From Chryseobacterium cheonjiense (GTDB taxonomy: Bacteria; Bacteroidota; Bacteroidia; Flavobacteriales; Weeksellaceae), in contig NZ_JABBGF010000002.1 in the NCBI RefSeq assembly GCF_012927265.1, positions 806,001 to 870,000 on the forward strand: a stretch of DNA of 64,000 nucleotides, read 5' to 3'. A model generated the notes under the pieces. The model was not told the DNA's origin. It did no database searches and was given only the letters and a program-made list of their open reading frames with translations. A program made the position numbers and the translations under genes. This document shows, piece after piece, positions 14,754-47,847 of the stretch; the stretch's first letter is position 1, and every line of letters starts with the position of its first letter.

Positions 14754-15341
14754 ATGCTTACACTGGGACAACTTAAAGAAGCAACCTGCGCCAAATCAGC
14801 ATACGCCTTAAAATTTTTACCGTATGTTATTGAAACATGCGACAGGTTTTCAATTAATACCCCTTCAAGAATACTTAATTTCCTGGCACAGGTAGGCCAC
14901 GAAAGCGGCGGCTTATTCTACACGGAAGAGTTGGCCAGCGGAAGCGCTTATGAAGGAAGAAAAGATTTGGGAAATACCCAGAAAGGTGATGGGGTGAGAT
15001 TTAAGGGAAGAGGATTAATTCAGATTACCGGAAGAGCAAACTATAAAGCAGTATCGCTTGCTCTGGGAACTGATTTTATTACAAATCCTACATTTTTAGG
15101 CGGAAAGAATGTGACAAAGTGTAATGAGGTCCAGTTAAAAAATGCTGTGGAAAGTGCAGGGTGGTTCTGGAACAGTAAGAATCTGAATGCACTGGCAGAT
15201 CAGATCGATATCACCAAAAATATAGATACCGGAAATAATCTTGTTGTATTTAAAAAAATCACAAAAACAATAAATGGCGGTTATAACGGTTTGCCAGACA
15301 GGCTGAACCGGTATAAATCAGGATTGCAGTATTTCCTTTAA
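14754..15341 (+). CDS. GH19 chitinase/lysozyme-like protein (endolysin-like)
   Basis: A 195-residue protein covered by one glycoside hydrolase 19 domain: AQVGHESGGLFYTEE (with the catalytic glutamates), FKGRGLIQITGRANY, ESAGWFWNSKN and INGGYNGLPDR near the end. No signal peptide or membrane segment is seen. Size and domain content resemble phage endolysins that cut peptidoglycan or chitin-like glycans. No holin, phage structural or contractile-injection gene is nearby, so it may be a prophage remnant or an effector gene captured alone. It is monocistronic, with a repeat-filled gap downstream. Confidence 0.9.
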   Translation: MLTLGQLKEATCAKSAYALKFLPYVIETCDRFSINTPSRILNFLAQVGHESGGLFYTEELASGSAYEGRKDLGNTQKGDGVRFKGRGLIQITGRANYKAVSLALGTDFITNPTFLGGKNVTKCNEVQLKNAVESAGWFWNSKNLNALADQIDITKNIDTGNNLVVFKKITKTINGGYNGLPDRLNRYKSGLQYFL

Positions 15342-15380
15342 TTGTAACAGACTATCTTCAGACTGAAAATAGTCTTTATT

Positions 15381-15491
15381 TTTTAGGAGCTTTTTCCCGC
15401 TATCGCTACTCGCTTTATTAGATTTCGGCGGCGGCAAAGCCGCCGCCGAAATCTAATAAAGCTCAGACAGGCCGCTCAATCGGGGCTAGGG
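15381..15491. repeat. F1 element, copy 1: conserved flanks around a perfect palindrome
   Basis: The left flank contains AGCTTTTTCCCGCT and ACTCGCT; the right flank contains GCTCAGACA, CAATCGGGGCTAGGG. Between them is a 24-bp perfect inverted repeat (15412-15435 with 15439-15462, loop AAA) rich in GGCGGCGGC/GCCGCCGCC. The flanks match copy 2 at 34596 but the palindrome does not. CCCG of the left flank can pair with CGGG of the right, enclosing the central stem. Confidence 0.8.
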
Positions 15492-15561
15492 TAGGGTCAC
15501 TCATTTCAATATTGGAAAATATAAAAATTATTGATTATCAATAAAATGAAGCGAAAATTAA

Positions 15562-15880
15562 ATCTGTGTCATTTGCGAAATCTGCGGGAGATCAAAAAGA
15601 AACAATCATAAACCAATAAAATTTCATCAAGCTTCGCGAAGCAAATCCATTTGTCTCTGCTTACTAAAATAAGAAGCCTAAATGGGAAGTCTTTGCGTTA
15701 AAACCAAACATCTGCATCATCCGCAAAATCTGCGGGATATAAAATTAAAAATCAATTCATAAAAGAATATTTTCACGCTTCGCGCAGCAAATATATTTGC
15801 CTCTGCTTACTAAAATAAGGAACCTGAATAAGAATTCTTTGCGCTAAAACCAAAATCTCTTTATCATTAGCAAAATCAAA
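15562..15880. repeat. F3 tandem array of a degenerate ~145-bp repeat
   Basis: Two consecutive units (15562-15709 and 15710-15854) and the start of a third align along their length. Each begins ATCTG..TCAT..GC.AAATCTGCGGG, carries AGCAAATnnATTTG and CTCTGCTTACTAAAATAAG in the middle, and ends CTTTGCG(T/C)TAAAACCAAA. No reading frame of note. The 605 bases from 15342 to 15946 otherwise hold only F1 copy 1. Confidence 0.75.
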
Positions 15881-15940: not shown

Positions 15941-15946
15941 TTCCAG

Positions 15947-16029
15947 ACTTTAGGGGTGTCTGTTTGTGAACAGGCTGAGATTTTACCCTTTGAACCTGAT
16001 TTCTAGATCATACTAGCGTAGGGAAAAGT
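15947..16029 (+). ncRNA. TPP riboswitch (THI element) upstream of thiS
   Basis: It shows the conserved THI-box pieces in order: AGGGGTG, GGCTGAGA, ACCCTTTGAACCTGAT, and TAGCGTAGGGAA. ACTTT (15947-15951) pairs with AAAGT (16025-16029) to close P1. The start codon of thiS is 70 bases downstream; the segment between contains TGTACA twice, able to form a small hairpin that may be part of the expression platform. Binding of thiamine pyrophosphate should lower expression of the whole thi operon. Confidence 0.95.
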
Positions 16030-16098
16030 GAGATGACTTTTGCTGTACATTCTATTGTACAATGACGGACATTCCTAAAGTATATAAAAAATTTAGGA

Positions 16099-34553: not shown

Positions 34554-34579
34554 AAGGCTGCTTCGGCGGCCTTTTTTTT
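34554..34579 (+). terminator. UUCG-tetraloop terminator after the TonB receptor
   Basis: AAGGCTGC, TTCG, GCGGCCTT form an 8-bp stem with a UUCG loop (one G-U pair), followed by six more T. Confidence 0.9.
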
Positions 34580-34595
34580 GGATTCTATCAGAATT

Positions 34596-34723
34596 ATTTT
34601 TAGAAGCTTTTTCCCGCTTTCCGCACTCGCTATTTCTTTATTTTCCGGGGCGCGGCGGCTTCGCCGCCGCGCCCCGGAAAATAAAGAAATGAGCTCAGAC
34701 AATTGCTTCAATCGCGGCTAGGG
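34596..34723. repeat. F1 element, copy 2: conserved flanks around a different perfect palindrome
   Basis: Left flank AGCTTTTTCCCGCTTTCCGC and ACTCGCT, right flank GAGCTCAGACA, GCTTCAATCGCGGCTAGGG; both align base for base with copy 1 at 15381. The centre is a 28-bp perfect inverted repeat (34632-34659 with 34663-34690, loop TTC) built on GGGGCGCGGCGG, unrelated to the copy 1 centre. Followed after about 80 bases by F2 copy B. The 468-base gap 34507-34974 contains only these elements and the terminator. Confidence 0.8.
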
Positions 34724-34805
34724 AAACAGTTGGTTATTCACATTTGTTCCAAAAATCAATGTAGGTTTCAAGCTAAAACTTATTGCCTAAATCCTGACAG
34801 CTCAT

Positions 34806-34870
34806 CAATAGGAGCGGGCTTTAGCCCGCTTTAGAAAAATAAACCATCGATTGGCTTTAGCCAAAGCTTA
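34806..34870. repeat. F2 twin-hairpin element, copy B
   Basis: AGCGGGCTTTAGCCCGCT (34813-34830) and TTGGCTTTAGCCAA (34851-34864) separated by about 20 bases, preceded by CAATAGG and followed by AGCTTA. Same layout and orientation as the copy at 58643 and the reverse of the copy at 22926. Confidence 0.8.
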
Positions 34871-34959
34871 TAACATGGACAGGATTTCTAAAATCAGATC
34901 TGCATATTTTAAACTTAATACTGAACAATTCTTATATAACAAAAGTCACGAAAAAGTCA

Positions 34960-47697: not shown

Positions 47698-47847
47698 TTG
47701 AGTATTAAAAAAATAGTACTTAAATTTGCCCACGTTTACGAACGAGGAAAAATTTGTCCTGATTGCAACCTCTATAAAAAAATGCTAAAACAGTATTTCT
47801 TTTTAGCCGTACCGACAATTATTCTTATTTTTCTTCGTCAATTTTAA
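47698..47847 (+). CDS. Candidate 49-aa CPDC-motif small membrane protein
   Basis: The leader of metK contains a frame starting at a TTG (47698) and running to a TAA at 47847. It encodes a basic segment, then KICPDCNLYKK (a CXXC zinc-knuckle-like motif) and a hydrophobic helix FFLAVPTIILIFLRQF. Residue pattern and codon choice look protein-like, but the only upstream start is TTG, with no box before it, and a hairpin (GGGCAAA...TTTGCCC) covers its first third. A -7 box TAAATTTG (47721) inside the frame might drive metK instead. Could be a real small protein, a truncated gene or a regulatory leader. Confidence 0.35.
   Translation: MSIKKIVLKFAHVYERGKICPDCNLYKKMLKQYFFLAVPTIILIFLRQF
47721..47728 (+). 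promoter_or_regulatory. Possible promoter of metK
   Basis: TAAATTTG matches TAnnTTTG; it would give metK a leader of about 135 bases. It overlaps the candidate small frame at 47698. Confidence 0.35.

Follow-up and report, generated by a model that had tools for sequence, protein, structure and literature searches.

A Flavo-1 variant with variable perfect palindromes in Chryseobacterium, the arms of which are probably kept paired by replication template switching

We analyzed a 64,000-nucleotide stretch of the Chryseobacterium cheonjiense genome (contig NZ_JABBGF010000002.1, positions 806,001 to 870,000 of the forward strand), referred to here as the window. It contains two copies of a repeat element that we call F1, and a terminator-like hairpin precedes each of the two. 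The relevant features are as follows (gene names are readings of the translations).

Ending at 15341: lysozyme-like ORF upstream of copy 1
15350..15384, + strand: terminator-like hairpin and T-run, identified by eye, after the lysozyme-like ORF and directly before copy 1
15388..15407, + strand: left outer arm of copy 1 (AGC...CCCG...), pairing with the right outer arm, based on covariation in 165 elements and the minus-strand Flavo-1 alignment
15412..15435, + strand: left palindrome arm of copy 1, 24 nt, perfect
15436..15438, + strand: loop of copy 1, AAA
15439..15462, + strand: right palindrome arm of copy 1, 24 nt, perfect
15470..15491, + strand: right outer arm of copy 1 (...CAATCGGGGCTAGGG), based on window matches and covariation
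15389..15491, - strand: Flavo-1 (RF01705) match of copy 1, 25.5 bits against a gathering score of 42, covering model positions 1-76 of 76
Upstream of copy 2: TonB-receptor-like ORF
34554..34579, + strand: terminator-like hairpin and T-run, identified by eye, after the TonB-receptor-like ORF and upstream of copy 2
34605..34624, + strand: left outer arm of copy 2, based on sequence and covariation
34632..34659, + strand: left palindrome arm of copy 2, 28 nt, perfect
34660..34662, + strand: loop of copy 2, TTC
34663..34690, + strand: right palindrome arm of copy 2, 28 nt, perfect
34702..34723, + strand: right outer arm of copy 2 (CGCGG, one position unpaired against CCCG)
34606..34723, - strand: Flavo-1 (RF01705) match of copy 2, 25.4 bits against a gathering score of 42, covering model positions 1-76 of 76

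A hairpin like that at 34554..34579 is present in the six relatives inspected. The window also holds repeated intergenic units that match many places in relatives (15560-15850) between copy 1 and a TPP riboswitch (15942-16041), which lies upstream of a thiC-like ORF; this riboswitch and a SAM-II riboswitch at 47738-47798 score above the Rfam cut-off. A second high-copy repeat, GCGGGCTTTAGCCCGC with GGCTTTAGCC, is found at 34803-34874 and has many matches in relatives. Similar repeats flank a Y1 transposase gene of the same genome (L371, contig C1:400155) and may be the cognate REP elements of that transposase. Beside another Y1 gene, in genome G170, an Acido-Lenti-1 RNA match was obtained at the cut-off (L379, 1681-1726).

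Both copies are present as the earlier note had described them: near-identical flanks enclose two different perfect palindromes, of 24 bp with the loop AAA in copy 1 and of 28 bp with the loop TTC in copy 2. The right flank was matched twice in the window, against 0.03 matches expected, and the flank-gap-flank pattern gave two matches in the window and none in 100 shuffles. RNA folding of both copies on both strands resulted in z scores from -6.1 to -7.8. An intrinsic terminator role of the F1 center was rejected, since by eye there is no U-run directly 3' of the hairpin; the arms are followed on the + strand by TCAGACA (copy 1) or GAGCTCAGACA (copy 2) and on the - strand by GAGTAGCG or AGCGAGTG.

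To compile further copies, the inner flanks (ACTCGCT, 33-63 bases, AGCTCARACA) were used as search pattern. The earlier note had considered that these two copies might be the only ones in the genome; this is not so, since the pattern retrieved 32 copies from the C. cheonjiense genome (G000) and its reversed control none. F1 copies were found in 70 of the 118 sampled genomes of the genus, the reversed control giving one match in one other genome; 14 of the 118 contained at least ten copies, and the largest count was 33. Among the matches listed, named genomes belong to Chryseobacterium, Kaistella, Soonwooa, Epilithonimonas, and Tenacibaculum. Thirty-five copies were found in Chryseobacterium gambrini (G192) and 33 in Chryseobacterium mucoviscidosis (G193).

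Many of these sites are shared between species. Flank alignment identified 135 orthologous pairs among the fetched loci, many of them from the same sites and therefore not independent. G025 and G003 likewise carry an F1 element before thiC, in the region that corresponds to the copy at 15381. Between G192 and G193 there are 30 one-to-one orthologous pairs (L317 and L320 being without a clear G193 ortholog), and G025, which has 32 F1 copies, adds the 23 loci among the matches listed, L250 included. According to a simple ORF caller, the left neighbor gene points toward the element in 21 of 31 copies of the C. cheonjiense genome and in 134 of 202 overall (orthologs retained). The words TTGTCA and TCAATA are enriched to the right of the elements. 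Precise empty sites with target duplications were looked for, and none were found. Two further ideas were rejected: plasmid- or phage-borne copies, since copy 2 used as query gave no match at 1e-5, and a fixed-distance promoter motif, TANNTTTG, which was not enriched. At L234 and L235 (G003), identical F1 centers form part of a longer repeat, with similarity extending by eye about 90 bp or more to the right.

The earlier note had proposed Flavo-1 as a possible identity, and this guess was right in part. Both window copies align with the model over its full length and match its outer conserved positions, but with 25.5 and 25.4 bits they miss the gathering threshold of 42 bits, by which plain membership in the Rfam family was rejected. 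The inner part of F1 differs from the Flavo-1 inner helix consensus (AAauCCUUU ... AAAGauU). Because a full-length alignment is combined with a score of 25 against a cut-off of 42, we regard F1 as a Flavo-1 variant that has its own inner core. Nor do the flanks merely belong to an Rfam family with a fixed center: they match Flavo-1, below its cut-off, but the center is variable. The C. cheonjiense genome contains at least 48 Flavo-1 matches at E values up to 10, of which 16 exceed the cut-off; these totals are lower bounds, as 150 of 1,111 candidates were scored and window copy 1 was missed. Seventeen of the 48 matches overlap F1 copies, and the other 31 include two weak ones (E values of 0.37 and 7.3). 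Passages of one article on such matches (PMC9723704) report them in sense or antisense orientation, many outside transcribed regions, and the passages naming Flavo-1 in the literature searched give no function for it. Near the first bases of three contigs of the C. cheonjiense genome (C4, C1, and C3), perhaps beside rRNA operons, lie L026, L027, and L028, respectively, Flavo-1-type copies that closely resemble one another and have a third core.

A number of properties of the element can be derived from these data. (i) The outer arms form a conserved paired structure. The three base pairs tested are of Watson-Crick type at frequencies of 0.91, 0.94, and 0.99 over 165 elements (orthologs retained), with mutual information exceeding all 2000 shuffles, so that the pairing of the CCCG and CGGG flank segments proposed in the earlier note is backed by covariation. 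(ii) The centers are mostly perfect or nearly perfect palindromes. Among 221 distinct elements, orthologs included, 129 have perfect GC-type stems, 28 have stems with one mismatch, and five have stems with two, whereas 19 centers are imperfect or short and 40 are low in GC. The median length of stems with at most two mismatches is 24 bp, and the common loops form the reverse-complement pairs AAA/TTT, GAA/TTC, and GGA/TCC. Some copies carry an imperfect center (TTTTTTGTGCC...GCTTACAAAAA type) inside the same inner flanks, and a perfect hairpin is therefore not required. (iii) The centers follow a loose pattern, consisting of an AT-rich base, a GTTTCGG-like middle, and a GC-rich apex, with a median identity of about 0.7 between copies within one genome. 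That the stem sequence is "wholly replaced" was thus an overstatement: centers do differ, but they have this loose pattern in common, and the differences between orthologs are mostly gradual and mirrored on both arms.

The remaining mismatches are unevenly divided between two types. On the F1 strand, stem mismatches are A.C in 16 cases and G.T in five (p 0.027; orthologs included), A.C corresponding to G.U on the Flavo-1 strand. Stems together with the flank pairs from loci unbiased by the search pattern gave 21 versus 6 (p 0.006); the fixed left flank in the pattern favors C.A at the flank pairs of loci L117-L232, and the five cases counted come from other loci (L315/L335 once). The A.C excess points to the Flavo-1 strand as the folded one, an interpretation that we put forward with moderate confidence since the stem count in the C. 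cheonjiense genome alone is 2 to 2. Low-GC loci among L117-L231, mainly from Tenacibaculum, have AT-rich centers; at one stem position, 38 such copies, which are not independent, show A.C 16 times, A-T 13 times, G-C nine times, and G.T never.

The most informative data come from the comparison of orthologous centers. Between G025 and G192, 20 loci provided 489 stem columns, of which 431 were conserved, 33 contained mirrored substitutions, 11 were mirrored indel columns, and 14 were asymmetric; three of the 23 loci (L396, L405, and L407) were excluded because of foreign centers. Between G192 and G193, 26 of the 30 pairs provided 575 conserved, 16 mirrored, and 20 asymmetric stem columns, along with three mirrored and five asymmetric indel columns; excluded were L285/L347, L311/L338, and L291/L342, with different centers or a single flank, and L322/L290, which is of the imperfect class. 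Independent mutation predicts 0.70 and 0.52 mirrored substitutions, respectively, and the excess is thus about 30- to 47-fold. Between G025 and G192, mirrored substitutions occupy 6.7% of the stem columns, and the nearest 150 bp diverge by 6.5%; between G192 and G193, the values are 2.6% and 5.0%, i.e., half the adjacent rate. These adjacent rates were calculated from those flank sides that could be aligned (37 of 40 and 49 of 52, respectively). Mirrored change therefore lies far beyond independent mutation, at half to equal the adjacent rate. Outer arms changed at 44 of 1,270 and 33 of 1,467 sites, about half the adjacent rate, indicating that they are constrained, the sequence of the center much less so. 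Since asymmetric columns (20) outnumber mirrored ones (16) between G192 and G193, any correction of the arms would not be instantaneous.

The loops add a second kind of change. Exactly reverse-complemented loops were observed between orthologs in four of 26 loci (G192 versus G193) and five of 20 (G025 versus G192), as well as at the L286 locus, amounting to nine different loci. At L328/L341 (27-bp stem, flanks 98.1% identical), L331/L346, and the L286 locus, the loop is inverted with the stem unchanged, and the L331 loop (TTTT) is inverted relative to both other genomes. Compared with random draws from the pooled loops, there is no clear excess of reverse-complemented loops (about 0.15 expected; 0.15 and 0.25 observed), as reverse-complement pairs already make up the pool; the argument for inversion is hence carried by the loops that differ while their stems stay the same. 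C-runs or G-runs at the apexes of L296, L300, and L351 in C. mucoviscidosis suggest sequencing errors at hairpins, and the C-runs make G193 loop calls less certain. Half-converted centers were found as well. In L309 of G192, the left arm is the complement of its own right arm save one indel, and a different left arm is retained at this site in G025 and G193; with G025 assumed to be the outgroup, one arm was apparently largely rewritten to match the other. L396 of G025 has the CGTTTTTTTCGG motif of another locus on one arm and lacks it on the other.

Taken together, we consider F1 to be a variant of the dispersed Flavo-1 element that has a different inner core and in which the copying of one arm from the other by template switching during replication probably keeps the centers paired. 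The outer arms make up the conserved fold, which encloses a variable center, namely a long inverted repeat with a spacer of 3 to 4 nucleotides. When replication passes this repeat, the new strand may occasionally switch template and copy one arm from the other, which would erase mismatches, mirror changes and indels on both arms, and in some cases invert the spacer. Mutation and, occasionally, transfer from other copies would supply new arm sequence, which would be mirrored afterwards; several center differences consist of adjacent multi-base changes, which suggests input from other copies too. According to passages of PMC8604942 and PMC8794818, template switching homogenizes the arms of inverted repeats and inverts their spacers, and both footprints were found when we tested for them here. 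Of the three options offered by the earlier note, hairpin-templated copying is accordingly the best supported, by the mirrored changes and indels, the reverse-complemented loops, and the rewritten arm. That the copying is due to replication template switching, and not to some other process acting on the arms, is our inference, as is a function of the outer fold that would be read from the Flavo-1 strand.

Selection on structure, the second of these options, would require the stems and keep them paired by two-step compensatory mutations. It is in agreement with the covariation and half-rate change of the outer arms and, slightly, with the center, given the preference for G.U-type mismatches on the Flavo-1 strand (16 versus 5 in stems; 21 versus 6 with flanks). 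The fact that mirrored change between G192 and G193 proceeds at only half the adjacent rate shifts some weight from template switching to selection. On its own, however, selection leaves unexplained that the centers change at half to equal the adjacent rate; mirrored stem changes exceed the independent expectation 30- to 47-fold, mirrored indels occur, loops invert without any stem change, and imperfect centers within the same inner flanks show that perfection is not essential to the family, all of which makes selection alone unlikely. The third option, an exchange of palindromes or cores among dispersed copies as the source of most diversity, does describe real events. L291, L342, and L405 represent one orthologous site with three different centers; at the L287/L407 site, the G025 center (L407) resembles that of L393, a different locus, whereas G192 and G193 carry another; and L045 and L233 have one common center in different outer arms. 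Whole cores differ too. Among six relatives inspected at the 34596 slot, G012, G018, and G020 carry the canonical Flavo-1 core and G023 a third core, and there is no element in G003 and G010. At L284, a different core type follows a left flank with 99% identity over 160 bases, the right flank being without match, and L325 is perhaps another core swap, its right flank being matched only in part, at 83%. Independent insertion into the same slot is a possible alternative for the cases at 34596, L284, and L325. Such swaps of whole centers or cores account for only a small share of the loci compared: just three of the 23 G025 loci have a center that is foreign in whole or in part, most differences are small and mirrored, and within-genome center pairs at least 90% alike are rare (6/496 among the 32 C. 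cheonjiense copies, 2/406 among 29 of the 35 G192 copies, and 3/325 among 26 of the 33 G193 copies). As the main source of diversity, exchange is hence quite improbable. A broader version, doubtful but worth retaining, is that the outer arms serve as a fixed docking site in which the entire core, be it F1, canonical Flavo-1, or of the ACTCATACTCC...GGGGTAACCG type, would be replaced in place by an unrecognized exchange, with template switching regenerating perfect palindromes. If this were true, the family would be a modular set of hypervariable hairpins that can be exchanged for one another, and not an RNA family the centers of which are noisy.

Two other explanations have very little probability. 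In one, F1 is a REP-like element mobilized by a Y1 (RAYT) transposase, with single-strand transposition shaping the hairpins. In raw counts that ignore genome size and kinship, Flavo-1 and Y1 co-occur within the order (of 79 genomes, 15 have both, four Flavo-1 only, seven Y1 only, and 53 neither), and atypical structures beside Bacteroidetes Y1 genes are described in passages of PMC6006769. On the other hand, G177 lacks any Y1 match at an E value of 0.001 despite its 34 Flavo-1 matches, neither a Flavo-1 match nor the flank signature was found within about 1.2 kb at any of 20 Y1 loci, and many sites are common to several species. Mobilization by RAYT was rejected because Y1 and Flavo-1 track each other loosely and no copies were found beside the Y1 genes at these 20 loci. 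A GTAG/CGTC foot tag is not family-wide, as the outer arms of 181 elements contained GTAG five times, CTAC 66 times, and CGTC or its complement never. In the other, equally remote, explanation, the variation would be a sequencing or assembly artifact at hairpins that are hard to read, as the C-runs at some C. mucoviscidosis apexes (L296, L300, and L351) and a G-run in L208 of ZHDP1 might indicate. Against this, mirrored differences and loop inversions are also present between G025 and G192, a comparison without the C. mucoviscidosis assembly, and we reason that, with arms shorter than 30 bp, an assembly that uses words of at least about 33 bases should give the correct loop orientation.

It has long been asked whether perfect stems arise from two separate mutations or from a single templated event, and the F1 family provides a large number of replicate perfect hairpins, at sites common to several species, that drift at a measurable speed. 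The data also hold a warning, since covariation in the center, usually taken to prove an RNA function, can arise from a mutational mechanism; covariation in the more slowly changing outer arms remains the better evidence of such a function.

F1 can be compared with three known systems. (i) Like Flavo-1, it is dispersed in Flavobacteriales, matches the model over its full length with the same outer conserved positions, and occupies genomic slots that hold a Flavo-1 core in some relatives; unlike Flavo-1, it has ACTCGCT...AGCTCARACA in place of the inner helix and, in Chryseobacterium, usually a long perfect palindrome as its center. (ii) F1 resembles REP elements with RAYT transposases, as characterized in passages of PMC3733652 and PMC6006769, in being intergenic, palindromic, and multi-copy, but it is longer and modular and has no consistent GTAG/CGTC foot, and no Flavo-1 match was found beside the Y1 genes at the 20 loci. 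(iii) Arm homogenization, multi-base compensatory change, and spacer inversion, e.g., from GAA to TTC, are features in common with the template-switch evolution of RNA hairpins and of yeast inverted repeats, as set out in passages of PMC8794818 and PMC8604942, respectively. In contrast to the systems treated there, F1 is a single bacterial element in many dispersed copies that drift rapidly (32, 35, and 33 copies in three genomes), and these many copies thus constitute replicate loci that can be compared with one another.
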